Part shown: in pieces, positions 30-62,121 of the stretch | Layout: every line of letters starts with the position of its first letter | Numbering within the stretch: the stretch's first letter is position 1 | Assembly: GCA_963971305.1 (NCBI GenBank) | Contig: OZ020307.1 | Span: forward strand, 1,129,501 to 1,193,500 | DNA from: Arcuatula senhousia | Taxonomy: Eukaryota > Mollusca > Bivalvia > Mytilida > Mytilidae | Reading direction: 5' to 3' | DNA: 64,000 bases | The notes under the pieces: model-generated | Told to the model about the DNA's origin: nothing | Seen by the model: the letters and a program-made list of their open reading frames with translations, nothing else | Databases searched by the model: none | Position numbers and translations under genes: made by a program

Positions 30-1843
30 ATGTCTCCAAGTTCTGCTAAGTTAGTTTTGGATAACAATAGATTCCAAAGTCTCACGAAAAGACGCAAACA
101 GAAACTGTTTTGGTATCATAAGAACAAACCCATAAAGCAAGCTGAATACAAATCCTCTAAGGAAGCTGTTAGAAAACGGATGTATCGAGAAAACAAGAAA
201 AAAAGTAGGGAAAGTGAGAGGGATAGAAAAAGGAAGTATAGGGAAAAACTTAAAAACAAAGCTGTTGTTGAAAACGGAGAAGGAGTGTTACTTAATGTTT
301 TTGGAAATAGAACAAACAAACATAGAGCCCTTAGGAAATTTAAAAAAAGCTTTGCCAACCACCCCCAAGAAACGATTAGCTACGATTTCGGCGTATTTAC
401 AAGACAAAAATCGCCAACAGTAAATAATCTCGTCAAAACAAATGTAGTTTCTTCGCCAGAAAAATTAGAAAATAAGTCCATAGAGTCGGCCGTACTGCAG
501 GACATTAAAACAGCTATCAGCACCTGCTTGAAAAGACGTTCTTCCGATGCCATGGCAACTATGAATGCTTTAATGGCATCCGTTAGCGAAGAAAGTATCA
601 CAGAAATAAAGAGCAGAAAGAGATTGGCAGAAAAACTAGGTTTACCATTAAGACGTATAAGCAGAGAAGTCGTGTTGGACCTATACGTGTAGGAAAACAA
701 GATCGGGTGCTATATCAGAAGATTTAAAATTTTGGATGAAACCCGGAATTTCTCGTCCCAACGGCAACAAGTCAGACATAAAGCGGGAAAGAATAGGACC
801 GAAAACATATTCGAGCCACATGGTACATCTACTCGAAAAAACACAAACGGAAGCATATATTGAATTTCTTTGTGAAAATCCAACCGTTAAAATGTCACAG
901 ATATCATTTGAGAATTGTAAACCCTCCTTCATAAGACAGGTTAGACAAAAGGACCGACATACCTGTTGCTGTAGATACCATGTGGAAATAAAAAGTATAT
1001 TAAAATCATGTATGGACTTTAGGAAAAAACTTTTACAATCGACAGATATTGACGTACAAATTTATGATTCTATTAGTGATGTTGTTGATGTAACATTATG
1101 TCCAAAGCAAAATGATTTTCAAGATATGTCGTGCCTGAGGAGACAATGTACTGAATGTGGTATTAAAAATTTAGAAATATTACCTGAAGAACAAGCCAAA
1201 TCTGAAAACGCTCAAAATGTTAAATGGGAAAAATTTGAAAACGTTAATATCACAGTGAAAGGGGATAAAACAGTAAAAAAGTTACTTTTAGTAAAACAAG
1301 AAACAAAGGTCGGAAAATTTGAACATTTTGCAGAGTTGCTTAAATCGTTCCCACTACACCAGCAAAGAGCAACTTGGCAAAATAAACAATTTCAATCTTT
1401 AGTTGTCAATCTCCCTATAAAAAGTTGTATTTGTGTTCATGATTTTTCGGAGAACTATCGATGCTCAAGCCTAAAAGAACTCCAAAGTGGTTATTTTCAA
1501 AAGACCGAAGTTTTTGTTCATGTGTCAATTATTCACCGCCATGGCCTTTTAGAATATGACGGAGAAGAGAGCACCGAAGATTTTCCGGAGATCGTAACGG
1601 AACACTTTAATGTTATAAGCAATGACCAGCAGCATGATCAGCATTTCGTACATGAAGCTAGAAGACAAATTTCAGAGTACTTGAAGTCTATCTCATATAA
1701 CGTAGAGACAATGCAAGAGTTCACTGATGGTTGTGCTGCTCATTACAAAAGTCGTCACTGCTTCGGAGACACTAGTAATTCATGTCGTGATTTTGGTTAC
1801 ACAACCTTCACACAAAATTTTTTTGCGACAGCGCATGCTAAAG
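30..1843 (+). pseudogene. DFSENY-type transposase-like gene, exon 1 (frameshifted)
   Basis: Two open stretches in different frames, 30-692 and about 682-1843, form one coding exon interrupted by a frameshift near 685-692. The N-terminal third is very basic (Lys/Arg/Glu-rich, residues ~18-85). The second part has Cys/His clusters (HTCCCRYH, CLRRQCTECG) and then DFSENY and DGCAAHYKSR, which I read as the first two acidic positions of an RNase H-like transposase fold seen in many invertebrate uncharacterised transposon-like proteins. The exon ends with FFATAHAKG at a good donor, AAAG|GTAAAT, at 1843. The family normally continues with a GG..KR motif, and exactly that starts the exon at 24,937. 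ATG 30 follows TTTCAGC, so an upstream untranslated exon is possible. The family name and catalytic role are inference; the frameshift and the phase-compatible splice are seen directly. Confidence 0.65.
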
Positions 1844-1885: not shown

Positions 1886-1894
1886 CCTTTTTGT
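1886..1894. repeat. Left 9-bp target-site duplication
   Basis: CCTTTTTGT directly abuts the outer end of the left terminal inverted repeat. The same nonamer abuts the right one at 23958-23966. Confidence 0.9.
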
Positions 1895-2241
1895 ACTAAA
1901 CTCAAGCTAGCGAACAATAAGCCAGCGAACAATAACAAAAATCAAGCTAGCGAACAATAAGCTAGCGAACAATAAGAAAACGCGCGAAAATGGTAATATC
2001 TAAAAACCAAAAAATCGCAATATCGTACAATTTTTCTATACACATTTTTGCTCACCTGAACCGAAGGATCATGCGAGCATTAATCTTTGTCGTCCGTCCG
2101 TCTGTTAACTTTTTCAAACTTTAACTGCTCTGACACTAAAAGTCCAGCATGGCGTGGTTTTTTTAGTGTATGATGCGGAATTTTGACTTTTTTAAGGAAA
2201 AATATAATCGTCGTGGCTAAAAATAGACCATAGGGGTAGGT
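1895..2241 (+). repeat. Left terminal inverted repeat (347 bp)
   Basis: It starts ACTAAACTCAAGCTAGCGAA and matches the reverse complement of 23610-23957 except for two substitutions and one T-tract length difference. The outer ~75 bp contain four copies of an AAGC(T/C)AGCGAACAATAA-type motif. The inner part has CTCACCTGAACCGAAGG and CGTCCGTCCGTCTGTTAAC, also recognisable in the dispersed repeats at 27.25 kb and 49.7 kb. Confidence 0.92.
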
Positions 2242-4845
2242 AAATTGCATTTTTTGCAAATAACACAAAAACGGCCTCACATATCGAAATTCCCGCAAAC
2301 AGGTAAAAGTGGTCAGCATGCCAAGATCTATCTACCCTGAAATGTTTGAAGAAGACCCAAAAAGCCACGTAGGAATTAAGAACTGTGCTTTTTGGATTTT
2401 TTTCTTAATTTTTAACTTTATTAATTATTGTTAAAAATGTAATTGGGTCAATTTATTATAGAATTATTTCTCTTTGAAGGTAAAAGTGATTGTTTTGCTA
2501 AGTGTGGTTTACTACTGTAGTTAACACACATTGAACAGGTCGAGTCATATGTAAATTTATTTCCAAATAAGGGCACATCCATTTTGCATATTCATGTTCG
2601 ATTGTTTATTTACCTGTCGCGTTTATCCATGAATTGATTGAATTATGGGATACGATGATTGATTTATAGTACTATAAAACGTGCTGAACAGCCGTAAAGT
2701 ATTGAAAATTGTAGAGCATGAGAAGAAAATTTGAATGTATTATAAGAAACGAAAATTGCAAACATATTCTCCTCACAAAGCAAACAATCCATTGCATTTT
2801 CAGATTTCAAATTGAACGACTCTTTGATATAAAAAAAATCTTCCAAACTAGGGATGTTATGCATATTTTTAAATGACTTTACAGTTGCATAAAATAACTT
2901 GAATTTTGTAGCCGTATTATATCCATGTTTAGGAGATAACTACAAGAGACACATCAAGATATGTTATTTTTTTCTCTTTTTTATAACAAATAACAGTACA
3001 AAATACTCCATAAAAAATAGCAATACAAAATACATGCATAAAATTTGACAATAAAACGGGTAAAATTATCGTCAGTCAAAAGATTCATGATCGTCATTTG
3101 CTTAGATATTTTATTTCTTCTCGAATCAAATTGAGAAAATCGATTCGTATTCATTTTTCAGCGTATTTTATTTCTGCTTTATAAAGATTTCTTTCTGTTC
3201 AACGAGGAGGTGTTTTTATGTTTTCATCGATTATAGCAAGAAGCTGGGTTTTTGTCTTGTTTTCGTCTTGTCTCTCATTGTGTGCTAAGTATTTTTTTGT
3301 AAATTAAAGAGGAGATGGATATATACACCTCTTTTAGTGAAATTTGTAAAAAAAAGTGTCATATTATTGAGGGATAGATTTGTAAAGTCCAAATAATTTT
3401 GAGATATAGGTTTGGTTTTGTAAAATGCATGTGTATTTCTCTCGTAAGAGCTATGTATATATATAAGTTTTTTAAACGCCATATTTTATTCCATGTATTA
3501 TGAGAAATATGAAAAATATCGATCTTCTGTATTATCATGTATTACTGTGGCGGAAAGCTTTACAGACGACTGGGCAAAGATAAAACAGAACTGTCACTTT
3601 CTTGAAAGTTTTAAAATAAATTCAAAAAATGTCGAGTACAATCATGCTATCTACGTTCGAAGAAGGATAACTCTTAATCTATCTATAGGAAATACATTGC
3701 CTTTGTCACCTCTTGTTTTTACAAATGGATCAGTTTCTAATGACACATTTGGCGATATGGAAAACGCTTCTAACACAAAAATGAATCATTTTTATTCAAA
3801 ATACTTACAACAGCAATCGATTCATGAAATGCAGCATTTCAAAAACTTAAAAGTCGGTTTAAGTGGTAAAAGTGAACGAAAATAACATTGTTTTTTACTA
3901 TATGAATATTATATATTCCAATATATGGGACCTCTTTCTGATTTTGCATTCCAAAGATCAGTAGTTACTGAGAAAACTGTTACCCAAATATTTCCCCTCT
4001 CATCCGCCGCTGCACAACGCCTATCATCCGCCCACCGTTCAACATTCACCATTCAATAGTTCGAATTTTCACTAGACAAATTATCCCCACTACAAATTCC
4101 CCTGAAAATTCAAAAGACTTCACGAAGATATAATGGTAAGTTGGTCTTATCTTGAAATAGGACGGCTCTAAAAATTTGATGCATACTATGCAAATCTGCC
4201 CCCTTTTGTCAGAAATTTCTTTGCCTTTTGTTGCAAGCGGGAAGGTAAAACATTCCCATATTTTGAAATATTTAAATGCCCTCACTCCTTTTGTGTTTGG
4301 GAAAGGAGCAAGACCTTTGAAACGACATTATGTGCATATGCATATAAAGACGAACGCGACCTTTCAAAATACCATTTTTAAATTGGCAATCATATACTTA
4401 CTCAGCATTCACGGTAACTTGACTGTATATATATGTGGTATTTCCACGGATAAAACATGCATTTTCTTAAAACATTACTATTAACAACTATATATATGCA
4501 TAGGTATGTATGCGTTACGTTGTGCATAACTATACGCAAATGCTAAAAACTATGCAATCACTATAAATAAAGGCAATCTGAGCATAGAAAAGTTCAAAAA
4601 TAATATAAAGTTTAGTTTTCTTTTGTTTTATTATAAAAACTATAAAAAATCAAAGTAAAAAGAAGCAAAATGTACTTATTACTAAATTTTCATTCATAAA
4701 GTACTACGAATATACATGCATTTTTCAAAGCAGTCAACTAATTAATATTTAAATTTATGCTGACGTCAAGATTTGTACCTGACTAGACCTGTTGAAACAA
4801 TGCAGAAAAATAACCAGTAGTAGCTAACCAAATGATAAATAACAG
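2242..4845. other. Left interior of the giant element, no recognised gene
   Basis: AT-rich sequence with only short open frames. Apart from the weak ORF at 3493-3885 I see no transposase, RNA gene or repeat array. The 169-bp array begins at about 4846 with a decayed monomer. Confidence 0.6.
3493..3885 (+). CDS. Unrecognised 130-aa ORF inside the giant element
   Basis: ATG to TAA, 130 codons, in the left interior. The composition is ordinary (Asn, Ser and Lys rich, no membrane segment, no Cys/His cluster) and I recognise no motif. It is the longest frame in the interior outside the satellites and could be a remnant exon of an element-borne gene, but it could equally be chance in AT-rich DNA. 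No TATA box or splice context clearly supports it. Confidence 0.2.
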   Translation: MYYEKYEKYRSSVLSCITVAESFTDDWAKIKQNCHFLESFKINSKNVEYNHAIYVRRRITLNLSIGNTLPLSPLVFTNGSVSNDTFGDMENASNTKMNHFYSKYLQQQSIHEMQHFKNLKVGLSGKSERK

Positions 4846-7800
4846 GAAGTACCAAAATGTAGGGTCAGAAGGACGAGGGTACCGAGCTTTTACCAACAAT
4901 GAAGAAAAAATTAAGATTTACCCAGCTAGTGATTAAAGAACTGGATAGTGCTCATTCCATATGGGTACCAAGATGTAGGGGCAGACGGTCGAGGTTACCA
5001 AGCTTTGACCAACAATCAAGAAAAAAGTAAAAATTTACCCAGCAGGGGATTTAAGGGCTAGATTGTGCTAGGATAGTTCTAGCATATCCCAAAAGCTCGG
5101 TCCAAACTTTGCCGTAGGGCTCATTCCATATGAGTACCAAGATGTAGGGGCAGACGGTCGAGGGTACCCAACTTTGACCAACAATCAAGAAAAAAGTAAA
5201 AATTTACCCAGCTAGGGATTAAATGACTGGATAGTGCTAGGATAATACTAGCATACCCCAAAAGCTCGGTCCAAACTTTGCCGTAGGGAACATTCCATAG
5301 GGGTACCAAGATGTAGCGGCAGAAGGACGAGGTTCCCAACTTTGACCAACAATCAAGAAAAAAGTAAAAATTTACCCAGCTAGGGATTAAAGTATTGGAT
5401 AGTGCTAGGATAATACTAGCATATCTTAAAAGCTCGGTCAAAACTTTGCCGTAGGGCTCATTCCATAGGGGTACTAAGATGTAGGGGCTGACGGACGAGG
5501 GTACCCAACTTTGACCGATAATCAAGAAAAAAGTAAAAATTTACCCAGATAGGGATTAAAGGACTGAATAGTGCTTGGAAAGTACTAGCATATCCTTAAA
5601 GCTCGGTCCAAACTTTGCCATAGGGCTCATTCCATATGGGTACCAAGATGTAGGGGCAGACGGTCGAGGGTTCCCAACTTTGACCAACAATCAAGAAAAA
5701 AGTAAAAATTTAACCAGCAGGGGATTATACGGCTGGATAGTGCTAGGATAGTACTAGCATATCCCAAAAGCTCGGTTCAAACTTTGCCGTAGGGCTCATT
5801 CCATATGGGTACCAAGATGTAGGGGCAGACGGTCGAGGGTTCCCAACTTTGACCAACAATCAAGAAAAAAGTAAAAAATTAACCAGCTAGGGATTAAAGG
5901 ACTGGATAGTGCTAGGATAATAATAGCATATCCCAAAAGCTCGGTCCGAACTTTGCCGTAGAGAACATTCCATATTGGTACCAAAATCTAGGGGCAGACG
6001 GTCGAGGGTACCCAAATTTGACCAACAATCAAGAAACAAGTAAAAATTTACCCAGCTAGGGATTAAAAGACTAGATAGTGGTAGGATAGTACTAGCATAT
6101 CCCAAAAGCTCGGTCCAAAATTTGCTGTAGGGCTCAATCCATAGTGGTACCAAAATGTAGGGGCAGACGGACGAGGGTACACAAGTTTGACCAACTATCA
6201 AGAAAAAAGTAAAAATTTACCCAGCAGGGGATTAAAGAGCTAGATAGTGCTAGGATAGTACTAGCATATCTCAAAAGCTCGGTCGAAACTTTGCCGTAGG
6301 GCTTATTCCATAGGGGTACCAAGATGTAGGGGCAGATGGACGAGGGTACCCAAGTTTGAACAACTATCAAGAAAAAAGTAAAAAATTACCCAGCAGGGCA
6401 TTAAAGGGCTAGATAGTGCTAGGATAGTACTAGCATATCCCAAAAGCTCGGTCCAAACTTTGCCGTAGGACTCATTCCATAGGGGTACTAAGATGTAGGG
6501 GCTGACGGACGAGGGTACCCAACTTTGACCGATAATCAAGAAAAAAGTAAAAATTTACCCAGATAGGGATTAAAGGACTGAATAGTGCTTGGATAGTACT
6601 AGCATATCCTTAAAGCTTGGTCCAAACTTTGCCGTAGGGCTCATTCCATAGGGGTACCAAGATGTAGGGTCAGAAGGACGAGGTTCCCATCTTTGACCAA
6701 CATTCAAGAAAAAAGTAAAAATTAACCCAGCAGGGGATTAAACGGCTGGATAGTGCTAGGATAGTACTAGCATATCCCAAAAGCTCGGTCCAAACTTTGC
6801 CATAGGGCTCATTCCATATGGGTACCAAGATGTAGGGGCAGACGGTCGAGGGTTCCCAACTTTGACCAACAATCAAGAAAAAAGTAAAAATTTACCCAGC
6901 TAGGGATTAAAAGACTGGATAGTGCTAGGATAATACTAGCATATCCCAAAAGCTCGGTCCAAACTTTGCCGTAGGGCTCATTCCATATTGGTACCAAAAT
7001 CTTGGGGCAGACGGTCGAGGGTACGAAACTTTGACCAACAATCAAGAAACAAGTAAAAAGTTACCAAGCTAGGGATTAAAAGACTAGATAGTGGTAGGAT
7101 AGTACTAGCATATCCCAAAAGCTCGGTCCAAACTTTGCCGTAGGGCTCATTTCATAGTGGTACCAAAATGTAGGGGCAGACGGACGAGGGTAACCAAGTT
7201 TGACCAACTATCAAGAAAAAAGTAAAAATTTACCCAGCTAGGGATTAAAGGGCTAGATAGTGCTAGGATAGTACTAGCATATCCCAAAAGCTCGGTCAAA
7301 ACTTTGCCGTAGGGCTCATTCCATAGTGGTACCAAAATGTAGGGGCAGACGGACGAGGGTACCCAAGTTTGACCAACAATCAAGAAAAAAGTAAAAATTT
7401 ACCCAGATAGGGATTAAAGGACTGAATAATGCTATGATAGTACTAACATATCCTTAAAGCTTTCCCCACACTTTGCCGCAGGGCTCATTCCATAGGGGTA
7501 CCAAAATGTAGGGGCAGACGGACGAGGGTACCCAACTTTGACCAGCTATCAAGAAAAAAGTAAAAATTTACCCAGCATGGTATTAAAGGGCTAGATAGTG
7601 TTGGGATAGTACAAGCATATCCCAAAAGCTCGGTCCGAACTTTGCCGTAGAGAACATTCCATATTGGTACCAAAATCTAGGGGCAGACGGTCGAGGGTAC
7701 CCAACTTTGACCAACAATCAAGAAACAAGTAAAAATTTACCCAGCTAGGGATTAAAAGACTAGATAGTGGTAGGATAGTACTAGCATATCCCAAAAGCTC

Positions 7801-10800
7801 GGTCCAAACTTTGCCGTAGGGCTCATTCCATAGTGGTACCAAAATGTAGGGGCAGACGGACGAGGGTACCCAAGTTTGACCAACTATCAAGAAAAAAGTA
7901 AAAATTTACCCAGCAGGGGATTAAAGAGCTAGATAGTGCTAGGATAGTACTAGCATATCCCAAAAGCTCGGTCAAAACTTTGCCGTAGGGCTTATTCCAT
8001 AGGGGTACCAAGATGTAGGGGCAGATGGACGAGGGTACCCAAGTTTGACCAACTATCAAGAAAAAAGTAAAAATTTACCCAGCAGTGGATTAAAGGGCTA
8101 GATAGTGCTAGGATAGTACTAGCATATCCCAAAAGCTCGGTCCAAACTTTGCCGTAGGACTCATTCCATAGGGGTACTAAGATGTAGGGGCTGACGGACG
8201 AGGGTACCCAACTTTGACCGATAATAAAAAAAAAAGTAAAAATTTACCCAGATAGGGATTAAAGGACTGAATAGTGCTTGGATAGTACTAGCATATCCTT
8301 AAAGCTTGGTCCAAACTTTGCCGTAGGGTTCATTCCATATTGGTACCAAAATCTAGGGGCAGACGGTCGAGGGTACCAAACTTTGACCAACAATCAAGAA
8401 ACAAGTAAAAGTTTACCCAGCTAGGGATTAAAAGACTAGATAGTGGTAGGATAGTACTAGCATATCCCAAAAGCTCGGTCCAAACTTTGCTGTAGGGCTC
8501 ATTTCATAGTGGTACCAAAATGTAGGGGCAGACGGACGAGGGTAACCAAGTTTGACCAACTATCAAGAAAAAAGTAAAAATTTACCCAGCTAGGGATTAA
8601 AGGGCTAGATAGTGCTAGGATATTACTAGCATATCCTAAAAGCTCGGTCAAAACTTTGCCGTAGGGCTTATTCCATATGGGTACCAAGATGTAGGGGCAG
8701 ACGGTCGAGGGTTCCCAACTTTGACCAACAATCAAGAAACAAGTAAAAATTTACCCAGCAGGGGATTAAACGGCTGGATAGTGCTAGGATAGTACTAGCA
8801 TATCCCAAAAGCTCGGTCCAAACTTTGCCGTAGGGCTCATTCCATATGGGTAACAAGATGTAGGGGCAGACGGTCGAGGGTTCCTAACTTTGACCAACAA
8901 TCAAGAAAAAAGTAAAAATTTACCCAGCTAGGAATTAAAGGACTAGATAGTGCTAGGATAATACTAGCATATCCCAAAAGCTCGGTCCAAACTTTGCCGT
9001 AGGGCTCATTCCATAGTGGTACCAAAATGTAGGGGCAGACGGACGAGGGTACCCAAGTTTGACCAACAATCAAGAAAAAAGTAAAAATTTACCCAGATAG
9101 GGATTAAAGGACTGAATAGTGCTATGATAGTACTAGCATATCCTTAAAGCTCTCTACAAACTTTGCCGCAGGGCTCATTCCATAGGGGTACCAAAATGTA
9201 GGGGCAGACGGACGAGGGTACCCAAGTTTGACCAGCTATCAAGAAAAAAGTAAAACTTTACCCAGCATGGGATTAAAGGGCTAGATAGTGCTGGGATAGT
9301 ACAAGCATATCCCAAAAGCTCGGTCCGAACTTTGCCGTTGAGAACATTCCATATTGGTACCAAAATCTAGGGGCAGACGGTCGAGGGTACCAAACTTTGA
9401 CCAACAATCAAGAAACAAGGAAAAATTTACCCAGCTAGGGATTAAATGACTGGATAGTGCTAGGATAATACTAGCATACCCCAAAAGCTCGGTCCAAACT
9501 TTGCCGTAGGGCTCATTCCATAGGGGTACTAAGATGTAGGGGCTGACGGACGAGGGTACCCAACTTTGACCGATAATCAAGAAAAAAGTAAAAATTTACC
9601 CAGATAGGGATAAAAGGACTGAATAGTGCTTGGATAGTACTAGCATATCCTTAAAGCTTGGTCCAAACTTTGCCGTAGGGCTCATTCCATAGGGGTACCA
9701 AGATGTAGGGGCAGAAGGACGAGGGTACCCAAGTTTGACCAGCTATCAAGAAAAAAGTAAAACTTTACCCAGCATGGGATTAAAGGGCAAGATAGTGCTA
9801 GGATAGTACTAGCATATCCCAAAAGCTCGGTCAAAACTTTGCCGTAGGGCTTATTCCATAGGGGTACCAAGATGTAGGGGCAGATGGACGAGGGTACCCA
9901 AGTTTGACCAACTATCAAGAAAAAAGTAAAAATTTACCCAGCAGTGGATTAAAGGGCTAGATAGAACTAGGATAGTACTAGCATATCCCAAAAGCTCGGT
10001 CCAAACTTTGCCGTAGGACTCATTCCATAGGGGTACTAAGATGTAGGGGCTGACGGACGAGGGTACCCAACTTTGACCGATAATAAAAAAAAAGTAAAAA
10101 TTTACCCAGATAGGGATTAAAGGACTGAATAGTGCTTGGATAGTACTAGCATATCCTTAAAGCTTGGTCCAAACTTTGCCGTAGGGCTCATTCCATATGG
10201 GTACCAAGATGTAGGGGCAGACGGTCGAGGGTTCCCAACTTTGACCAACAATCAAGAAAAGAGTAAAAATTTACCCAGCTAGGGATTAAAGGACTGGATA
10301 GTGCTAGGATAATACTAGCATATCCCAAAAGCTCGGTCCAAACTTTGCCGTAGGGCTCATTCCATATTGGTACCAAAATCTAGGGGCAGACGGTCGAGGG
10401 TACCAAACTTTAACCAACAATCAAGAAACAAGTAAAAATTTACCCAGCTAGGGATTAAAAGACTAGATAGTGGTAGGATAGTACAAGCATATCCCAAAAA
10501 CTCGGTCCAAACTTTGCCGTAGGGCTCATTCCATAGTGGTACCAAAATGTAGGGGAGACGGACGAGGGTAACCAAGTTTGACCAACTATCAAGAAAAAAG
10601 TAAAAATTTACCCAGCTAGGGATTAAAGGGCTAGATAGTGCTAGGATATTACTAGCATATCCCAAAAGCTCGGTCAAAACTTTGCCGTAGGGCTTATTCC
10701 ATATGGGTACCAAGATGTAGGGGCAGACGGTCGAGGGTTCCCAACTTTGACCAACAATCAAGAAACAAGTAAAAATTTACCCAGCAGGGGATTAAACGGC

Positions 10801-10815
10801 TGGATAGTGCTAGGA
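4846..10815 (-). repeat. Satellite array A: 169-bp monomer, ~35 diverged copies
   Basis: Tandem units of 169 bp with landmarks TTTACCCAGCTAGGGATTAA, GCTCGGTCCAAACTTTGCCG and GTACCAAGATGTAGGGGC. Individual copies differ by several percent and include small deletions; the first unit lacks about 50 bp. Distinctive variants recur ten monomers apart, for example those ending near 6201, 7890 and 9580 (spacing 1689-1690 bp), so there is higher-order structure. Strand is given relative to array B, to which it is homologous as the reverse complement. Each monomer contains the short inverted repeat TGCTAG...CTAGCA. Confidence 0.93.
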
Positions 10816-13800
10816 GCTTTTGGGATATGCTAGCTCTATGCTAGCATAATCCATTCTCAAAATCCCCAGCTGGGTAAATTTTTCATTGTTCCACAATCCA
10901 TGGTCAAAGTAGGGTCCCCCTGGCCATATAACCCTTCGTCTTGCTACTGCCTATGCTTAGCCCCTACGGCAAAGTTTGGACCGAGCTTTTGGGATTTGCT
11001 AGCTCTATGCTAGCATAATCCATTCTCAAAATCCCCAGCTGGGTAAATTTTTCATTGTTCCACAATCCATGGTCAAAGTAGGGTCCCCCTGGCCATATAA
11101 CCCTTCGTCTTGCTACTGCCTATGCTTAGCCCCTACGGCAAAGTTTGGACCGAGCTTTTGGGATTTGCTAGCTCTATGCTAGCATAATCCATTCTCAAAA
11201 TCCCCAGCTGGGTAAATTTTTCATTGTTCCACAATCCATGGTCAAAGTAGGGTCCCCCTGGCCATATAACCCTTCGTCTTGCTACTGCCTATGCTTAGCC
11301 CCTACGGCAAAGTTTGGACCGAGCTTTTGGGATTTGCTAGCTCTATGCTAGCATAATCCATTCTCAAAATCCCCAGCTGGGTAAATTTTTCATTGTTCCA
11401 CAATCCATGGTCAAAGTAGGGTCCCCCTGGCCATATAACCCTTCGTCTTGCTACTGCCTATGCTTAGCCCCTACGGCAAAGTTTGGACCGAGCTTTTGGG
11501 ATTTGCTAGCTCTATGCTAGCATAATCCATTCTCAAAATCCCCAGCTGGGTAAATTTTTCATTGTTCCACAATCCATGGTCAAAGTAGGGTCCCCCTGGC
11601 CATATAACCCTTCGTCTTGCTACTGCCTATGCTTAGCCCCTACGGCAAAGTTTGGACCGAGCTTTTGGGATTTGCTAGCTCTATGCTAGCATAATCCATT
11701 CTCAAAATCCCCAGCTGGGTAAATTTTTCATTGTTCCACAATCCATGGTCAAAGTAGGGTCCCCCTGGCCATATAACCCTTCGTCTTGCTACTGCCTATG
11801 CTTAGCCCCTACGGCAAAGTTTGGACCGAGCTTTTGGGATTTGCTAGCTCTATGCTAGCATAATCCATTCTCAAAATCCCCAGCTGGGTAAATTTTTCAT
11901 TGTTCCACAATCCATGGTCAAAGTAGGGTCCCCCTGGCCATATAACCCTTCGTCTTGCTACTGCCTATGCTTAGCCCCTACGGCAAAGTTTGGACCGAGC
12001 TTTTGGGATTTGCTAGCTCTATGCTAGCATAATCCATTCTCAAAATCCCCAGCTGGGTAAATTTTTCATTGTTCCACAATCCATGGTCAAAGTAGGGTCC
12101 CCCTGGCCATATAACCCTTCGTCTTGCTACTGCCTATGCTTAGCCCCTACGGCAAAGTTTGGACCGAGCTTTTGGGATTTGCTAGCTCTATGCTAGCATA
12201 ATCCATTCTCAAAATCCCCAGCTGGGTAAATTTTTCATTGTTCCACAATCCATGGTCAAAGTAGGGTCCCCCTGGCCATATAACCCTTCGTCTTGCTACT
12301 GCCTATGCTTAGCCCCTACGGCAAAGTTTGGACCGAGCTTTTGGGATTTGCTAGCTCTATGCTAGCATAATCCATTCTCAAAATCCCCAGCTGGGTAAAT
12401 TTTTCATTGTTCCACAATCCATGGTCAAAGTAGGGTCCCCCTGGCCATATAACCCTTCGTCTTGCTACTGCCTATGCTTAGCCCCTACGGCAAAGTTTGG
12501 ACCGAGCTTTTGGGATTTGCTAGCTCTATGCTAGCATAATCCATTCTCAAAATCCCCAGCTGGGTAAATTTTTCATTGTTCCACAATCCATGGTCAAAGT
12601 AGGGTCCCCCTGGCCATATAACCCTTCGTCTTGCTACTGCCTATGCTTAGCCCCTACGGCAAAGTTTGGACCGAGCTTTTGGGATTTGCTAGCTCTATGC
12701 TAGCATAATCCATTCTCAAAATCCCCAGCTGGGTAAATTTTTCATTGTTCCACAATCCATGGTCAAAGTAGGGTCCCCCTGGCCATATAACCCTTCGTCT
12801 TGCTACTGCCTATGCTTAGCCCCTACGGCAAAGTTTGGACCGAGCTTTTGGGATTTGCTAGCTCTATGCTAGCATAATCCATTCTCAAAATCCCCAGCTG
12901 GGTAAATTTTTCATTGTTCCACAATCCATGGTCAAAGTAGGGTCCCCCTGGCCATATAACCCTTCGTCTTGCTACTGCCTATGCTTAGCCCCTACGGCAA
13001 AGTTTGGACCGAGCTTTTGGGATTTGCTAGCTCTATGCTAGCATAATCCATTCTCAAAATCCCCAGCTGGGTAAATTTTTCATTGTTCCACAATCCATGG
13101 TCAAAGTAGGGTCCCCCTGGCCATATAACCCTTCGTCTTGCTACTGCCTATGCTTAGCCCCTACGGCAAAGTTTGGACCGAGCTTTTGGGATTTGCTAGC
13201 TCTATGCTAGCATAATCCATTCTCAAAATCCCCAGCTGGGTAAATTTTTCATTGTTCCACAATCCATGGTCAAAGTAGGGTCCCCCTGGCCATATAACCC
13301 TTCGTCTTGCTACTGCCTATGCTTAGCCCCTACGGCAAAGTTTGGACCGAGCTTTTGGGATTTGCTAGCTCTATGCTAGCATAATCCATTCTCAAAATCC
13401 CCAGCTGGGTAAATTTTTCATTGTTCCACAATCCATGGTCAAAGTAGGGTCCCCCTGGCCATATAACCCTTCGTCTTGCTACTGCCTATGCTTAGCCCCT
13501 ACGGCAAAGTTTGGACCGAGCTTTTGGGATTTGCTAGCTCTATGCTAGCATAATCCATTCTCAAAATCCCCAGCTGGGTAAATTTTTCATTGTTCCACAA
13601 TCCATGGTCAAAGTAGGGTCCCCCTGGCCATATAACCCTTCGTCTTGCTACTGCCTATGCTTAGCCCCTACGGCAAAGTTTGGACCGAGCTTTTGGGATT
13701 TGCTAGCTCTATGCTAGCATAATCCATTCTCAAAATCCCCAGCTGGGTAAATTTTTCATTGTTCCACAATCCATGGTCAAAGTAGGGTCCCCCTGGCCAT

Positions 13801-16800
13801 ATAACCCTTCGTCTTGCTACTGCCTATGCTTAGCCCCTACGGCAAAGTTTGGACCGAGCTTTTGGGATTTGCTAGCTCTATGCTAGCATAATCCATTCTC
13901 AAAATCCCCAGCTGGGTAAATTTTTCATTGTTCCACAATCCATGGTCAAAGTAGGGTCCCCCTGGCCATATAACCCTTCGTCTTGCTACTGCCTATGCTT
14001 AGCCCCTACGGCAAAGTTTGGACCGAGCTTTTGGGATTTGCTAGCTCTATGCTAGCATAATCCATTCTCAAAATCCCCAGCTGGGTAAATTTTTCATTGT
14101 TCCACAATCCATGGTCAAAGTAGGGTCCCCCTGGCCATATAACCCTTCGTCTTGCTACTGCCTATGCTTAGCCCCTACGGCAAAGTTTGGACCGAGCTTT
14201 TGGGATTTGCTAGCTCTATGCTAGCATAATCCATTCTCAAAATCCCCAGCTGGGTAAATTTTTCATTGTTCCACAATCCATGGTCAAAGTAGGGTCCCCC
14301 TGGCCATATAACCCTTCGTCTTGCTACTGCCTATGCTTAGCCCCTACGGCAAAGTTTGGACCGAGCTTTTGGGATTTGCTAGCTCTATGCTAGCATAATC
14401 CATTCTCAAAATCCCCAGCTGGGTAAATTTTTCATTGTTCCACAATCCATGGTCAAAGTAGGGTCCCCCTGGCCATATAACCCTTCGTCTTGCTACTGCC
14501 TATGCTTAGCCCCTACGGCAAAGTTTGGACCGAGCTTTTGGGATTTGCTAGCTCTATGCTAGCATAATCCATTCTCAAAATCCCCAGCTGGGTAAATTTT
14601 TCATTGTTCCACAATCCATGGTCAAAGTAGGGTCCCCCTGGCCATATAACCCTTCGTCTTGCTACTGCCTATGCTTAGCCCCTACGGCAAAGTTTGGACC
14701 GAGCTTTTGGGATTTGCTAGCTCTATGCTAGCATAATCCATTCTCAAAATCCCCAGCTGGGTAAATTTTTCATTGTTCCACAATCCATGGTCAAAGTAGG
14801 GTCCCCCTGGCCATATAACCCTTCGTCTTGCTACTGCCTATGCTTAGCCCCTACGGCAAAGTTTGGACCGAGCTTTTGGGATTTGCTAGCTCTATGCTAG
14901 CATAATCCATTCTCAAAATCCCCAGCTGGGTAAATTTTTCATTGTTCCACAATCCATGGTCAAAGTAGGGTCCCCCTGGCCATATAACCCTTCGTCTTGC
15001 TACTGCCTATGCTTAGCCCCTACGGCAAAGTTTGGACCGAGCTTTTGGGATTTGCTAGCTCTATGCTAGCATAATCCATTCTCAAAATCCCCAGCTGGGT
15101 AAATTTTTCATTGTTCCACAATCCATGGTCAAAGTAGGGTCCCCCTGGCCATATAACCCTTCGTCTTGCTACTGCCTATGCTTAGCCCCTACGGCAAAGT
15201 TTGGACCGAGCTTTTGGGATTTGCTAGCTCTATGCTAGCATAATCCATTCTCAAAATCCCCAGCTGGGTAAATTTTTCATTGTTCCACAATCCATGGTCA
15301 AAGTAGGGTCCCCCTGGCCATATAACCCTTCGTCTTGCTACTGCCTATGCTTAGCCCCTACGGCAAAGTTTGGACCGAGCTTTTGGGATTTGCTAGCTCT
15401 ATGCTAGCATAATCCATTCTCAAAATCCCCAGCTGGGTAAATTTTTCATTGTTCCACAATCCATGGTCAAAGTAGGGTCCCCCTGGCCATATAACCCTTC
15501 GTCTTGCTACTGCCTATGCTTAGCCCCTACGGCAAAGTTTGGACCGAGCTTTTGGGATTTGCTAGCTCTATGCTAGCATAATCCATTCTCAAAATCCCCA
15601 GCTGGGTAAATTTTTCATTGTTCCACAATCCATGGTCAAAGTAGGGTCCCCCTGGCCATATAACCCTTCGTCTTGCTACTGCCTATGCTTAGCCCCTACG
15701 GCAAAGTTTGGACCGAGCTTTTGGGATTTGCTAGCTCTATGCTAGCATAATCCATTCTCAAAATCCCCAGCTGGGTAAATTTTTCATTGTTCCACAATCC
15801 ATGGTCAAAGTAGGGTCCCCCTGGCCATATAACCCTTCGTCTTGCTACTGCCTATGCTTAGCCCCTACGGCAAAGTTTGGACCGAGCTTTTGGGATTTGC
15901 TAGCTCTATGCTAGCATAATCCATTCTCAAAATCCCCAGCTGGGTAAATTTTTCATTGTTCCACAATCCATGGTCAAAGTAGGGTCCCCCTGGCCATATA
16001 ACCCTTCGTCTTGCTACTGCCTATGCTTAGCCCCTACGGCAAAGTTTGGACCGAGCTTTTGGGATTTGCTAGCTCTATGCTAGCATAATCCATTCTCAAA
16101 ATCCCCAGCTGGGTAAATTTTTCATTGTTCCACAATCCATGGTCAAAGTAGGGTCCCCCTGGCCATATAACCCTTCGTCTTGCTACTGCCTATGCTTAGC
16201 CCCTACGGCAAAGTTTGGACCGAGCTTTTGGGATTTGCTAGCTCTATGCTAGCATAATCCATTCTCAAAATCCCCAGCTGGGTAAATTTTTCATTGTTCC
16301 ACAATCCATGGTCAAAGTAGGGTCCCCCTGGCCATATAACCCTTCGTCTTGCTACTGCCTATGCTTAGCCCCTACGGCAAAGTTTGGACCGAGCTTTTGG
16401 GATTTGCTAGCTCTATGCTAGCATAATCCATTCTCAAAATCCCCAGCTGGGTAAATTTTTCATTGTTCCACAATCCATGGTCAAAGTAGGGTCCCCCTGG
16501 CCATATAACCCTTCGTCTTGCTACTGCCTATGCTTAGCCCCTACGGCAAAGTTTGGACCGAGCTTTTGGGATTTGCTAGCTCTATGCTAGCATAATCCAT
16601 TCTCAAAATCCCCAGCTGGGTAAATTTTTCATTGTTCCACAATCCATGGTCAAAGTAGGGTCCCCCTGGCCATATAACCCTTCGTCTTGCTACTGCCTAT
16701 GCTTAGCCCCTACGGCAAAGTTTGGACCGAGCTTTTGGGATTTGCTAGCTCTATGCTAGCATAATCCATTCTCAAAATCCCCAGCTGGGTAAATTTTTCA

Positions 16801-19800
16801 TTGTTCCACAATCCATGGTCAAAGTAGGGTCCCCCTGGCCATATAACCCTTCGTCTTGCTACTGCCTATGCTTAGCCCCTACGGCAAAGTTTGGACCGAG
16901 CTTTTGGGATTTGCTAGCTCTATGCTAGCATAATCCATTCTCAAAATCCCCAGCTGGGTAAATTTTTCATTGTTCCACAATCCATGGTCAAAGTAGGGTC
17001 CCCCTGGCCATATAACCCTTCGTCTTGCTACTGCCTATGCTTAGCCCCTACGGCAAAGTTTGGACCGAGCTTTTGGGATTTGCTAGCTCTATGCTAGCAT
17101 AATCCATTCTCAAAATCCCCAGCTGGGTAAATTTTTCATTGTTCCACAATCCATGGTCAAAGTAGGGTCCCCCTGGCCATATAACCCTTCGTCTTGCTAC
17201 TGCCTATGCTTAGCCCCTACGGCAAAGTTTGGACCGAGCTTTTGGGATTTGCTAGCTCTATGCTAGCATAATCCATTCTCAAAATCCCCAGCTGGGTAAA
17301 TTTTTCATTGTTCCACAATCCATGGTCAAAGTAGGGTCCCCCTGGCCATATAACCCTTCGTCTTGCTACTGCCTATGCTTAGCCCCTACGGCAAAGTTTG
17401 GACCGAGCTTTTGGGATTTGCTAGCTCTATGCTAGCATAATCCATTCTCAAAATCCCCAGCTGGGTAAATTTTTCATTGTTCCACAATCCATGGTCAAAG
17501 TAGGGTCCCCCTGGCCATATAACCCTTCGTCTTGCTACTGCCTATGCTTAGCCCCTACGGCAAAGTTTGGACCGAGCTTTTGGGATTTGCTAGCTCTATG
17601 CTAGCATAATCCATTCTCAAAATCCCCAGCTGGGTAAATTTTTCATTGTTCCACAATCCATGGTCAAAGTAGGGTCCCCCTGGCCATATAACCCTTCGTC
17701 TTGCTACTGCCTATGCTTAGCCCCTACGGCAAAGTTTGGACCGAGCTTTTGGGATTTGCTAGCTCTATGCTAGCATAATCCATTCTCAAAATCCCCAGCT
17801 GGGTAAATTTTTCATTGTTCCACAATCCATGGTCAAAGTAGGGTCCCCCTGGCCATATAACCCTTCGTCTTGCTACTGCCTATGCTTAGCCCCTACGGCA
17901 AAGTTTGGACCGAGCTTTTGGGATTTGCTAGCTCTATGCTAGCATAATCCATTCTCAAAATCCCCAGCTGGGTAAATTTTTCATTGTTCCACAATCCATG
18001 GTCAAAGTAGGGTCCCCCTGGCCATATAACCCTTCGTCTTGCTACTGCCTATGCTTAGCCCCTACGGCAAAGTTTGGACCGAGCTTTTGGGATTTGCTAG
18101 CTCTATGCTAGCATAATCCATTCTCAAAATCCCCAGCTGGGTAAATTTTTCATTGTTCCACAATCCATGGTCAAAGTAGGGTCCCCCTGGCCATATAACC
18201 CTTCGTCTTGCTACTGCCTATGCTTAGCCCCTACGGCAAAGTTTGGACCGAGCTTTTGGGATTTGCTAGCTCTATGCTAGCATAATCCATTCTCAAAATC
18301 CCCAGCTGGGTAAATTTTTCATTGTTCCACAATCCATGGTCAAAGTAGGGTCCCCCTGGCCATATAACCCTTCGTCTTGCTACTGCCTATGCTTAGCCCC
18401 TACGGCAAAGTTTGGACCGAGCTTTTGGGATTTGCTAGCTCTATGCTAGCATAATCCATTCTCAAAATCCCCAGCTGGGTAAATTTTTCATTGTTCCACA
18501 ATCCATGGTCAAAGTAGGGTCCCCCTGGCCATATAACCCTTCGTCTTGCTACTGCCTATGCTTAGCCCCTACGGCAAAGTTTGGACCGAGCTTTTGGGAT
18601 TTGCTAGCTCTATGCTAGCATAATCCATTCTCAAAATCCCCAGCTGGGTAAATTTTTCATTGTTCCACAATCCATGGTCAAAGTAGGGTCCCCCTGGCCA
18701 TATAACCCTTCGTCTTGCTACTGCCTATGCTTAGCCCCTACGGCAAAGTTTGGACCGAGCTTTTGGGATTTGCTAGCTCTATGCTAGCATAATCCATTCT
18801 CAAAATCCCCAGCTGGGTAAATTTTTCATTGTTCCACAATCCATGGTCAAAGTAGGGTCCCCCTGGCCATATAACCCTTCGTCTTGCTACTGCCTATGCT
18901 TAGCCCCTACGGCAAAGTTTGGACCGAGCTTTTGGGATTTGCTAGCTCTATGCTAGCATAATCCATTCTCAAAATCCCCAGCTGGGTAAATTTTTCATTG
19001 TTCCACAATCCATGGTCAAAGTAGGGTCCCCCTGGCCATATAACCCTTCGTCTTGCTACTGCCTATGCTTAGCCCCTACGGCAAAGTTTGGACCGAGCTT
19101 TTGGGATTTGCTAGCTCTATGCTAGCATAATCCATTCTCAAAATCCCCAGCTGGGTAAATTTTTCATTGTTCCACAATCCATGGTCAAAGTAGGGTCCCC
19201 CTGGCCATATAACCCTTCGTCTTGCTACTGCCTATGCTTAGCCCCTACGGCAAAGTTTGGACCGAGCTTTTGGGATTTGCTAGCTCTATGCTAGCATAAT
19301 CCATTCTCAAAATCCCCAGCTGGGTAAATTTTTCATTGTTCCACAATCCATGGTCAAAGTAGGGTCCCCCTGGCCATATAACCCTTCGTCTTGCTACTGC
19401 CTATGCTTAGCCCCTACGGCAAAGTTTGGACCGAGCTTTTGGGATTTGCTAGCTCTATGCTAGCATAATCCATTCTCAAAATCCCCAGCTGGGTAAATTT
19501 TTCATTGTTCCACAATCCATGGTCAAAGTAGGGTCCCCCTGGCCATATAACCCTTCGTCTTGCTACTGCCTATGCTTAGCCCCTACGGCAAAGTTTGGAC
19601 CGAGCTTTTGGGATTTGCTAGCTCTATGCTAGCATAATCCATTCTCAAAATCCCCAGCTGGGTAAATTTTTCATTGTTCCACAATCCATGGTCAAAGTAG
19701 GGTCCCCCTGGCCATATAACCCTTCGTCTTGCTACTGCCTATGCTTAGCCCCTACGGCAAAGTTTGGACCGAGCTTTTGGGATTTGCTAGCTCTATGCTA

Positions 19801-22489
19801 GCATAATCCATTCTCAAAATCCCCAGCTGGGTAAATTTTTCATTGTTCCACAATCCATGGTCAAAGTAGGGTCCCCCTGGCCATATAACCCTTCGTCTTG
19901 CTACTGCCTATGCTTAGCCCCTACGGCAAAGTTTGGACCGAGCTTTTGGGATTTGCTAGCTCTATGCTAGCATAATCCATTCTCAAAATCCCCAGCTGGG
20001 TAAATTTTTCATTGTTCCACAATCCATGGTCAAAGTAGGGTCCCCCTGGCCATATAACCCTTCGTCTTGCTACTGCCTATGCTTAGCCCCTACGGCAAAG
20101 TTTGGACCGAGCTTTTGGGATTTGCTAGCTCTATGCTAGCATAATCCATTCTCAAAATCCCCAGCTGGGTAAATTTTTCATTGTTCCACAATCCATGGTC
20201 AAAGTAGGGTCCCCCTGGCCATATAACCCTTCGTCTTGCTACTGCCTATGCTTAGCCCCTACGGCAAAGTTTGGACCGAGCTTTTGGGATTTGCTAGCTC
20301 TATGCTAGCATAATCCATTCTCAAAATCCCCAGCTGGGTAAATTTTTCATTGTTCCACAATCCATGGTCAAAGTAGGGTCCCCCTGGCCATATAACCCTT
20401 CGTCTTGCTACTGCCTATGCTTAGCCCCTACGGCAAAGTTTGGACCGAGCTTTTGGGATTTGCTAGCTCTATGCTAGCATAATCCATTCTCAAAATCCCC
20501 AGCTGGGTAAATTTTTCATTGTTCCACAATCCATGGTCAAAGTAGGGTCCCCCTGGCCATATAACCCTTCGTCTTGCTACTGCCTATGCTTAGCCCCTAC
20601 GGCAAAGTTTGGACCGAGCTTTTGGGATTTGCTAGCTCTATGCTAGCATAATCCATTCTCAAAATCCCCAGCTGGGTAAATTTTTCATTGTTCCACAATC
20701 CATGGTCAAAGTAGGGTCCCCCTGGCCATATAACCCTTCGTCTTGCTACTGCCTATGCTTAGCCCCTACGGCAAAGTTTGGACCGAGCTTTTGGGATTTG
20801 CTAGCTCTATGCTAGCATAATCCATTCTCAAAATCCCCAGCTGGGTAAATTTTTCATTGTTCCACAATCCATGGTCAAAGTAGGGTCCCCCTGGCCATAT
20901 AACCCTTCGTCTTGCTACTGCCTATGCTTAGCCCCTACGGCAAAGTTTGGACCGAGCTTTTGGGATTTGCTAGCTCTATGCTAGCATAATCCATTCTCAA
21001 AATCCCCAGCTGGGTAAATTTTTCATTGTTCCACAATCCATGGTCAAAGTAGGGTCCCCCTGGCCATATAACCCTTCGTCTTGCTACTGCCTATGCTTAG
21101 CCCCTACGGCAAAGTTTGGACCGAGCTTTTGGGATTTGCTAGCTCTATGCTAGCATAATCCATTCTCAAAATCCCCAGCTGGGTAAATTTTTCATTGTTC
21201 CACAATCCATGGTCAAAGTAGGGTCCCCCTGGCCATATAACCCTTCGTCTTGCTACTGCCTATGCTTAGCCCCTACGGCAAAGTTTGGACCGAGCTTTTG
21301 GGATTTGCTAGCTCTATGCTAGCATAATCCATTCTCAAAATCCCCAGCTGGGTAAATTTTTCATTGTTCCACAATCCATGGTCAAAGTAGGGTCCCCCTG
21401 GCCATATAACCCTTCGTCTTGCTACTGCCTATGCTTAGCCCCTACGGCAAAGTTTGGACCGAGCTTTTGGGATTTGCTAGCTCTATGCTAGCATAATCCA
21501 TTCTCAAAATCCCCAGCTGGGTAAATTTTTCATTGTTCCACAATCCATGGTCAAAGTAGGGTCCCCCTGGCCATATAACCCTTCGTCTTGCTACTGCCTA
21601 TGCTTAGCCCCTACGGCAAAGTTTGGACCGAGCTTTTGGGATTTGCTAGCTCTATGCTAGCATAATCCATTCTCAAAATCCCCAGCTGGGTAAATTTTTC
21701 ATTGTTCCACAATCCATGGTCAAAGTAGGGTCCCCCTGGCCATATAACCCTTCGTCTTGCTACTGCCTATGCTTAGCCCCTACGGCAAAGTTTGGACCGA
21801 GCTTTTGGGATTTGCTAGCTCTATGCTAGCATAATCCATTCTCAAAATCCCCAGCTGGGTAAATTTTTCATTGTTCCACAATCCATGGTCAAAGTAGGGT
21901 CCCCCTGGCCATATAACCCTTCGTCTTGCTACTGCCTATGCTTAGCCCCTACGGCAAAGTTTGGACCGAGCTTTTGGGATTTGCTAGCTCTATGCTAGCA
22001 TAATCCATTCTCAAAATCCCCAGCTGGGTAAATTTTTCATTGTTCCACAATCCATGGTCAAAGTAGGGTCCCCCTGGCCATATAACCCTTCGTCTTGCTA
22101 CTGCCTATGCTTAGCCCCTACGGCAAAGTTTGGACCGAGCTTTTGGGATTTGCTAGCTCTATGCTAGCATAATCCATTCTCAAAATCCCCAGCTGGGTAA
22201 ATTTTTCATTGTTCCACAATCCATGGTCAAAGTAGGGTCCCCCTGGCCATATAACCCTTCGTCTTGCTACTGCCTATGCTTAGCCCCTACGGCAAAGTTT
22301 GGACCGAGCTTTTGGGATTTGCTAGCTCTATGCTAGCATAATCCATTCTCAAAATCCCCAGCTGGGTAAATTTTTCATTGTTCCACAATCCATGGTCAAA
22401 GTAGGGTCCCCCTGGCCATATAACCCTTCGTCTTGCTACTGCCTATGCTTAGCCCCTACGGCAAAGTTTGGACCGAGCTTTTGGGATTT
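10816..22489 (+). repeat. Satellite array B: 169-bp monomer, ~69 near-identical copies
   Basis: Uninterrupted 169-bp units (e.g. CCGAGCTTTT at 10981 and 11150) with no difference that I noticed between copies, except the first monomer, which has GGATATGCTAG instead of GGATTTGCTAG. The unit shares CAGCTGGGTAAATTTTT, GGTCAAAGT and CTACGGCAAAGTTTGGACC with the reverse complement of array A but differs over much of the rest, roughly two-thirds identical by eye. It contains a perfect hairpin, TGCTAGC-TCTAT-GCTAGCA. The homogeneity implies very recent amplification or gene conversion, or an assembly effect. Confidence 0.95.
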
Positions 22490-23609
22490 TCTTTTATATT
22501 TGACTTTTCACGCATTGAAAAAAGTCCCCTTAAGATGTTGATAGTTTTGAAGAAAAAATATTTATAAGTCTAAAATAAATATGTTTATTTTGCATTTGCA
22601 CTTTTTCATTTATTCAATTTCAAGGGATGCGTTGGATATCTTGATTTACTGTTTTACTTTTTTAGAACTTTTTTTGAGGATGCCGACCCGGAAGTTAAAC
22701 ATGTTGACCCTTGTGTATGACATAGATATTTGTTTCAATCATTTTCTATGCAAGTTTTCTAACTTTTTATTTGCTATATATTTCCGATGCATTTAAACGG
22801 TAAAATAGGGACGATCATTTATGTTTATATACCATAATTTACCATTTCTTTTGAAATCCTGTACTAAGTCAGGACCATTTTGATCTTCAATTTCTCTGGT
22901 ATATCTTTCTTTTTTTTGTCTTTTCAATTCTTGGACATTTGAGATTGGATCTCCAAGTTAGTTATCTTGTTATTACCTTTATTTTTCATATGGTAATAAA
23001 TTGTTTCTTAAAAAAAACCACCTCAAAAAGTAGTACGGACTGACATAGGTAATTACATGCAAACCCCCGTCCGAACATGTATTCGATAAAAAATTAGTAA
23101 AAATTACTATCCTCGGGGAAGGGAGAGGGTTACTTTTCGTATATTTGAATTCGAAAATTAAATACCTTTTAATATCCCCCCCAAAAAAAACCTTATCCCA
23201 TAATTGACGCTGAAAACTGAAGATAAAGATTGGTATCGTGTATTCATTTCAAGTACAAATACTCAAAAATGGTTATTCAATCAACAAAAATTTTTAAAGA
23301 TGTATGTACAGTATATAAGAAAAGTTTAAAAAATAAATCAATATATAATTATGTTTCTTTATTCTTTCTTAAACTGCGATAAAATGGTTGGTCTTGTCAT
23401 ACAATTAGGAAGTAAATATTCTTAACCTTATTATATCATTAGTTTTTTCCCCAACTAATCACATCAACCTGAAAATGCCGGCTATTCCAGCGGCATGTAT
23501 CATCGCCTTCCACACGTACTAGTATATAGAAAGTCCCCCCCCCTTTTTCCGAGTCAATGTCTAAAAATCCTTGATCAAAAAACAAATATAATATGTCAAA
23601 ATGGTCAAA
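22490..23609. other. Right interior of the giant element, no recognised gene
   Basis: AT-rich sequence between array B and the right inverted repeat. Only short frames occur, none with a recognisable product. Confidence 0.6.
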
Positions 23610-23957
23610 ACCTACCTCTATGGTCTATTTTTAGCCACGACGATTATATTTTTCCTTAAAAAAGTCAAAATTCCGCATCATACACTAAAAAAAACCACGC
23701 CATGCTGGACTTTTAGTGTCAGAGCAGTTAAAGTTTGAAAAAGTTAACAGACGGACGGACGACAAAGATTAATGCTCGCATGACCCTTCGGTTCAGGTGA
23801 GCAAAAATGTGTATAGAAAAATTGTACGATATTGCGATTTTTTGGTTTTTAGATATTACCATTTTCGCGCGTTTTCTTATTGTTCGCTAGCTTATTGTTC
23901 GCTAGCTTGATTTTTGTTATTGTTCGCTGGCTTATTGTTCGCTAGCTTGAGTTTAGT
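23610..23957 (-). repeat. Right terminal inverted repeat (348 bp)
   Basis: Reverse complement of 1895-2241 at about 99% identity, ending ...CTTGAGTTTAGT. Sequence similarity stops abruptly at 23609/2242. Confidence 0.92.
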
Positions 23958-23966
23958 CCTTTTTGT
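23958..23966. repeat. Right 9-bp target-site duplication
   Basis: CCTTTTTGT, identical to 1886-1894, immediately outside the right inverted repeat. Confidence 0.9.
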
Positions 23967-29396: not shown

Positions 29397-45314
<15,918 letters not shown>

Positions 45315-60373: not shown

Positions 60374-60895
60374 ATATTTGCTGTTCGATCTATTTGTAGT
60401 TTTTGAGATTTTCATATTTTTAATATTTCCCTTTGATAACAATTTGAATCTGTATAGAATTGATGTGAACGTTTTAAAATATATATTCCTTTCTATATTA
60501 GTTCTAAGTTAAAGATCTAAAGTTGTCTTTTTGAAACTTATTGTAAAGAAAGCTACTTTTTGTCAATACTTTTAATTGGTATGTGTTCTATTGTTTTAGA
60601 ATTTTTTTTTTTTTTTTGTAATAGATTTTTCTTATAGTAGTTCTTAGTTTAAGTAAATAGATTAACTTTTTCTTTGTCTTAAGAGTTCTATTTTTGAGCT
60701 TGTGAGTGTTATAATCTGTATTGATATTTGTAAATAACTCAAAACATTGTGAATTTTGCTAGTAAATAATGATATTTGTATATTAGTTTGTTTGTAAATA
60801 ATGATATTTTTTGTACATATAAACGCTGTGAACTGAAACTCTTTGTTTTTTTTTTATGTCGTTGTCAGACCTTCACAAGGCAATAAAACAAACCT
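60374..60895 (+). other. AT-rich 3' untranslated region of polB
   Basis: T-rich noncoding sequence with a repeated TAAATAATGATATTT phrase. AATAAA at 60882-60887 is the candidate polyadenylation signal. Confidence 0.5.
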
Positions 60896-61165: not shown

Positions 61166-61190
61166 AACATGGGTCGCGATAAACCCACTA

Positions 61191-61242: not shown

Positions 61243-61260
61243 ACCCCCTCTGCATCCCAG

Positions 61261-61512: not shown

Positions 61513-61525
61513 TATAAGAAGTACC

Positions 61526-62098: not shown

Positions 62099-62121
62099 TG
62101 AAAGAAACACTTCCACAAAGA

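Follow-up and report, generated by a model that had tools for sequence, protein, structure and literature searches.

Paired satellite arrays inside large inverted-repeat elements of Arcuatula senhousia, a probable family of satellite-dispersing transposons

Structure of a 22-kb element with two opposed satellite arrays

We examined a 64,000-bp stretch of the genome of the bivalve Arcuatula senhousia (GenBank assembly GCA_963971305.1, contig OZ020307.1, positions 1,129,501 to 1,193,500 of the forward strand; here called the window), located in a 68.8-Mb contig of the 1.04-Gb assembly, and found in it a satellite-bearing unit of 22,063 bp (positions 1895 to 23957) that is bounded by terminal inverted repeats (TIRs). 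The left TIR (347 bp, 1895 to 2241, plus strand), which starts with ACTAAACTCAAGC, and the right TIR (348 bp, 23610 to 23957, minus strand) show 3 differences in 348 aligned columns, and each harbors about five (5.2) copies of the 15-bp motif AAGCTAGCGAACAAT, at 1904 to 1976 and 23876 to 23948, respectively. Directly at the outer edges of the two TIRs lies an exact 9-bp target-site duplication, CCTTTTTGT (1886 to 1894 and 23958 to 23966, plus strand), which has no further occurrence on either strand of the window (two on the plus strand, none on the minus strand); the chance of a 9-bp match exactly at both edges is about 4^-9.

Next to the left TIR is a spacer, whose initial 294 bp (2242 to 2535, plus strand) are common to other copies of the element and whose final 56 bp (4792 to 4847, plus strand) are set apart by a nested insertion of 2,256 bp (2536 to 4791, no strand assigned) with the ends CAGGTC...GACCTG and TTGAA on each side. 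It is followed by satellite array A (4848 to 10813, plus strand), with about 35 copies of a 169-bp monomer at a mean pairwise identity of about 88%, and by array B (10814 to 22489, minus strand), in which 68 of the 69 complete 169-bp copies are identical and the first differs by one base. A and B represent one satellite in opposite orientation and are about 71 to 77% alike. A right spacer of about 1.1 kb (22490 to 23609, plus strand), also common to other copies, leads to the right TIR. The two TIRs make up about 3% of the 22 kb, and the arrays, opposed to each other and interior to the TIRs, about 17.6 kb. The window sequence is free of N, and the array lengths given for it are those of the assembly alone. 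An initial annotation of this locus had described TIRs of about 348 bp at about 99% identity, a perfect 9-bp duplication and two internal arrays of about 17.6 kb, all of which agrees with our measurements.

A family of related elements in the genome

A genome search with the left end as query yielded matches of 97 to 100% identity (best 40 of 1,030 first-look candidates). The outermost 27 bp of the TIR, allowing up to 2 mismatches, were found at 270 places in the assembly (133 forward and 137 reverse), with none for a reversed-pattern control. From 100 of the 270 places, all exact, we collected every plus-strand end followed by a minus-strand end within 50 kb, which gave 28 pairs; a 29th, with one inexact end, was met in a fetched locus and added. 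An exact 9-bp duplication is present in 25 of these 29 convergent pairs, each time with a different 9-mer. The 25 duplication-bearing units have a median length of 22.06 kb, the shortest being 4.8 kb and the longest 44.7 kb, and 15 are at least 20 kb long. Mid-element probes of larger pairs revealed satellite in 10 of 12 cases (two of these pairs lack the duplication). The other two probes fell in nested DNA, a Polinton DNA-polymerase fragment and a LINE, and 10 further probes in each of those two elements found satellite in 7 (C10) and 3 (C7). Other TIR pairs flanking 169-bp arrays, which the initial annotation had named as the test of its proposal, are thus present, and this family supports its view that satellite DNA can spread as cargo of a giant element, by what would be a cut-and-paste chemistry.

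The order of TIR, spacer of 294 plus 56 bp, array A, inversion, array B, spacer of about 1.1 kb and TIR can be followed over the full length of the window copy, of L011/L012 and of L013, and in damaged versions in L014, where B monomers are mixed, in L023, where one TIR is damaged, and in L025, which has a single B box and interruptions in its spacers. Other fetched stretches show parts of this plan. Three loci depart from it: the part of L020 that was read holds neither B-type monomers nor the right spacer, L030 is short, with array A alone and a truncated TIR, and L018 is interrupted by a contig end. The sequence at the A/B inversion varies between copies, indicating that this junction has been remodelled.

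With up to 2 mismatches allowed, the satellite monomer box was detected 6,333 times genome-wide, against none for the control, corresponding to at least about 1.07 Mb; this is a lower bound, since a search of 21 sources that tolerated up to 6 mismatches gave 806 boxes, of which 169 exceed 2 mismatches. The 29 pairs sum to 615 kb. Seven arrays were met without using the TIR, and in five cases (C220, C456, C1481, C6:22.50 Mb and C1:58.26 Mb) a TIR end of this family points towards the array from elsewhere on its contig; C846 was left unassigned, and the seventh array, at C1:31.96 Mb, showed no such end at the place probed.

Two variant arrangements were also seen. At L103 (C4:32350900-32353000), a truncated form consists of a TIR and 3.4 B monomers, with three TIR ends in a row at a spacing of about 1,934 bp, and on C8 two variant TIR ends (C8:34171202 and 34214786), which share a strand and lie 43.6 kb apart, deviate in the base at position 28.

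A probable sister insertion that shares the nested insert

Among the fetched copies in which the left spacer was read, only the window copy and a left half in C220 (L015) contain the nested 2,256-bp insertion. The 2,606-bp left interior of the C220 half is 99.9% identical to that of the window copy, but its flank is unrelated and the adjoining 9-mer is TAGTGCCTC instead of CCTTTTTGT. A right half at position 19,777,814 of C11 carries TAGTGCCTC on its outside and a right spacer that is 99.5% identical, gaps included; at the other end of its B array lies an assembly gap (N run at about 19.763 Mb). A full match to the C220 flank was found only in C220 itself (best 40 of 7,916 candidates). We infer that the C220 and C11 halves probably belong to one insertion.

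Comparison of the window copy with C220/C11 revealed 1 substitution in about 630 bp at the left end and none in about 1.46 kb at the right end (gaps excluded). Of the first 20 A monomers, 19 have their best match in C220 in the same order, and the B arrays of the window and C11 copies are 99.5% alike. The same nested insertion and near-identical ends, combined with different flanks and a different duplication, indicate that the loaded element moved as a unit, and recently. The A arrays of the two copies are about 14 monomers apart (about 35 in the window and about 49 in C220), compared with 1 substitution in about 2.1 kb of ends; array length thus changes much faster than sequence.

Different histories of arrays A and B

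The arrays were compared using 768 monomers, each bounded by two recognisable boxes 150 to 190 bp apart, a definition that under-counts decayed monomers. Identity of A monomers was no higher within arrays (0.872 to 0.907; 19 groups) than between elements (0.871 to 0.909). Diversity of A has therefore not been made anew in each copy; the family-wide diversity is present in every copy, which inheritance of long arrays explains, as could exchange between elements. For B, identity within arrays was at least 0.994 in 10 of 12 groups, and between elements, with L014 and L020 left out, the groups were 0.979 to 1.000 alike, a pattern consistent with a single young variant having expanded recently.

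The consensus sequences of A and B are almost the same in about 35 columns. A conserved satellite box under constraint was considered but is not claimed, since diversity among A monomers was no lower in the columns at which the two arrays agree (p = 0.67; 539 monomers). No protein match was obtained for a reading frame spanning array A (48 candidates) in a collection ill-suited to finding the satellite in other species, and one TIR pattern and one satellite pattern gave 0 matches in viral contigs, a collection likewise ill-suited to the question.

Affinity of the element and candidate transposases

Helentrons and HINE elements are not known to have TIRs with 9-bp duplications, whereas full-length TIRs and 9-bp duplications are present here. 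A tandem array inside very long TIRs, a foldback feature as in Tetris, is absent as well, the arrays being interior to the TIRs. Composite TIRs with subrepeats, as described for foldback elements (PMC3169594), find their counterpart in the 15-bp motif. Mutator-like elements (MULEs) have target-site duplications of 8 to 11 bp and TIRs of 14 to 500 bp, often hundreds of base pairs, according to the account in PMC6446971; the 9-bp duplications in 25 of 29 pairs and the TIRs of 347 and 348 bp lie within these ranges. We regard the element as Mutator/foldback-like in the sense of a resemblance of ends, not of membership. For the label "foldback/MULE-like" in the initial annotation, this means that the 9-bp duplication and the long TIR with 15-bp subrepeats speak in its favor, while a transposase with these ends was not found in our searches.

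Genome scans for PF10551 and PF20700 gave at least 132 matches (150 of 284 candidates scored) and at least 114 matches (114 of 637 candidates scored), respectively. The nearest among the matches listed is a PF20700 tandem unit about 12 kb outside the end of the pair at C2:75.51-75.53 Mb. At five places the ends diverge after base 27, none of them near a listed transposase match. One element contains a Ulp1/C48-like frame, a weak match (E = 0.0088, below its cut-off) in decayed DNA between arrays.

Apart from the elements, PF20700 Mutator-type transposase genes were seen in tandem arrays with a spacing of about 3.8 to 4.4 kb, at least 42 of them on C7 (17.087 to 17.260 Mb), and further arrays lie at C6:13.13, C9:42.42, C9:21.71, C10:49.81 and C2:75.54 Mb and on C928, C1093 and C1651.

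Proposed mode of spread and competing explanations

The elements very probably form a family of large, non-autonomous, Mutator/foldback-like transposons that disperse satellite arrays as part of themselves, with B expanding afterwards. This reading builds on the ends, the duplications, the common anatomy and a sister insertion that shares the nested passenger, as they appear in the assembled sequence. A transposase supplied in trans would recognise the TIR ends, in which the 15-bp motifs could be its binding sites, and would mobilise the whole unit including the opposed arrays; insertion at a staggered cut would then give the 9-bp duplication. Array A would be the older and more diverse part, inherited with the element and slowly reshuffled, and array B a young one, re-expanded and homogenised within element lineages, possibly by local unequal exchange, slippage, circles or a replication-based route. 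More tentatively, and with some doubt on our part, the opposed arrays might be, instead of passengers, a functional and heritable part of the transposon, with tens of kilobases of satellite moved intact and B regenerated in each lineage.

Several observations weigh against the proposed transposon family. The longest shared run of A monomers had a median of 2 over 105 pairs (shuffled mean, about 1.2; window-C220 pair, 8), so that A order is mostly lost between elements and A arrays either turn over or exchange monomers; such exchange between elements could also account for the equal A identity within and between them. In 7 elements, the correlation between left-end and right-end divergence did not reach significance (Mantel r = 0.40, p = 0.13). 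Four of the 29 pairs match in only 7, 4, 3 and 3 of 9 positions, one of them beside Ns, and the array at C1:31.96 Mb had no TIR at the one place probed, which was extrapolated from its last exact box. A query of the joined window flanks showed no empty site among the best 40 of 638 candidates; what it matched was the right flank of the window copy itself and a dispersed repeat starting about 5 bp right of the target duplication. By visual comparison, none of the PF10551 and PF20700 matches listed falls within the 29 pairs, and no autonomous copy was found among the six transposase stretches inspected (3.5 to 4.7 kb each), as this TIR is absent both from the PF20700 units L102 (C2) and L104 (C7) and from L128-L131 around four PF10551 matches.

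An alternative that overlaps with the proposed transposon family as far as B is concerned, and that we consider unlikely on the whole, is that elements move with short arrays, which lengthen locally once inserted, so that size would reflect local expansion and not transported cargo. Array lengths do vary widely, from 1-3 up to 69 B boxes, and the near-identity of B within elements, the mostly unshared order of A monomers and the suggestion of the Tetris authors that larger arrays may disrupt transposition (PMC4079207) all agree with growth in place. Growth from few monomers, however, would not give equal A diversity within and between elements, and the near-identical ends of the window and C220/C11 copies, with 19 of the 20 first A monomers in order, imply that both descend from an element already carrying a long A array when it moved. 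It is highly improbable that TIR ends inserted around pre-existing arrays or that segmental duplication copied the loci: each of 25 of the 29 pairs has its own 9-bp duplication, and the 1.5-kb C220 flank has a single match in the window, of 96 bp at 71%, far from the insertion site, even though the repetition of the truncated form at C4:32350978 with 1,934-bp spacing and two copies in L020, 6.8 kb apart with the same left flank, speak in favor of such an origin. We give least credence of all to an assembly artefact that misjoined arrays and TIRs, which would not yield matched 9-bp duplications at 25 loci and against which the N-free window also speaks. Gaps do occur in or beside arrays (the N run in C11, 100 Ns in L017 and Ns after C2:36553219), and 68 identical B copies could conceal a false expansion or collapse; array lengths are therefore approximate, and an assembly artefact could change them.

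Comparison with known satellite-carrying elements

It has long been asked how satellite DNA comes to occupy many chromosome sites. The closest known case is Tetris, a foldback element of Drosophila virilis, which as described in PMC4079207 is non-autonomous, has long TIRs and target duplications of 8 to 10 bp, and contains satellite-like repeats in kilobase-size arrays, with no transposase found; fibre fluorescence in situ hybridization (fibre-FISH) showed long arrays between two TIR domains. Non-autonomy, long TIRs, similar duplications and satellite-like arrays are thus common to both. The Tetris repeats of about 220 bp are part of the TIRs, and only three structurally complete copies with duplications are described in that source, whereas in the present family two opposed arrays occupy the interior and exact duplications flank 25 units as long as 44.7 kb. 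In the Mutator/foldback element Tm1 of root-knot nematodes (PMC3169594), target duplications are likewise 9 bp long and the composite TIRs contain repeats of a motif of about 14 bp, compared to 15 bp here; unlike our elements, its copies are about 1 to 3 kb long, a transposase-bearing member is known, and satellite cargo is not mentioned in the portions of the source at hand. Rehavkus, a Mutator-related group reported from arthropods and annelids (PMC6446971), shares the 9-bp duplication and has TIRs of 26 to 400 bp, a minisatellite before the 3' TIR and a PHD-finger transposase; in our elements there are two inverted 169-bp arrays instead of the minisatellite, and no PHD-finger transposase was seen.

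Another bivalve carrier is known from the Pacific oyster, where Cg_HINE elements, non-autonomous Helentrons with subterminal repeats and a 3' palindrome as hallmarks, contain satellite-like arrays of about 165-bp monomers, exceptionally two in a row, with a mean of 3.62 and a maximum of 29.3 monomers (PMC7492417). Monomer size is similar, but the carrier here is a TIR element with arrays of about 35 and 69 copies. The TCAST transposon-like elements of Tribolium (PMC3411249) likewise place a satellite inside an inverted-repeat element; they are far smaller, at up to 1,181 bp with about one monomer plus a piece, and have a 3-bp instead of a 9-bp duplication.

In our searches of the open-licence literature, no report of a comparable sequence-resolved case was found, which does not prove that none exists. 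What is distinct here is the two opposed interior arrays and a sequence-level record of 25 exact insertion signatures in units of up to 44.7 kb. Among the transposon carriers compared here, as far as these sources describe them, Cg_HINE and TCAST hold short arrays and the large arrays of Tetris are suspected to disrupt transposition, whereas the present units keep exact insertion signatures at 25 loci and contain satellite at most probed places. Satellite DNA can apparently be moved round a genome in big ready-made blocks, and array inheritance, array growth and insertion age are separable copy by copy in this family. If the more tentative reading of the arrays as a functional part of the transposon is true, these elements would directly supply gene-bearing regions with scattered satellite DNA that could form heterochromatin.

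Insertion site and other features of the window

The window copy separates two coding exons that belong to a single gene. The upstream exon (736 to 1843, plus strand), for which an in-frame ATG but not the exon start was established, ends at a GT donor (1844) after ...HAKG, where the frame breaks; it resumes past an AG acceptor at 24937 with the next coding exon (24937 to 25070, plus strand; exon end not established), which starts with PHDAAGGLLKRQAD. Three of five relatives of the gene that were compared end within 11 residues after ...HAKG, and one continues as HAKGPQDAAGG. The motif pattern of the gene is loosely reminiscent of a transposase. The first exon had no Pfam match, and 70 homologues were found, the best named ones from Mytilus; judged by sequence, the gene is a member of a bivalve family without assigned function.

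Further downstream, a second pair of inverted repeats (27325 to 27589 and 49431 to 49695), 86% alike and 21.8 kb apart, is adjoined by short tandem arrays of 154- to 158-bp units (27656 to 27941 and 48648 to 49462) and is possibly another, older inverted-repeat element. Short frames at 40580 to 42595 resemble exons of an aminotransferase-like gene, and a 1,412-amino-acid open frame with its neighbours at 56135 to 63766 looks Polinton/Maverick-like.

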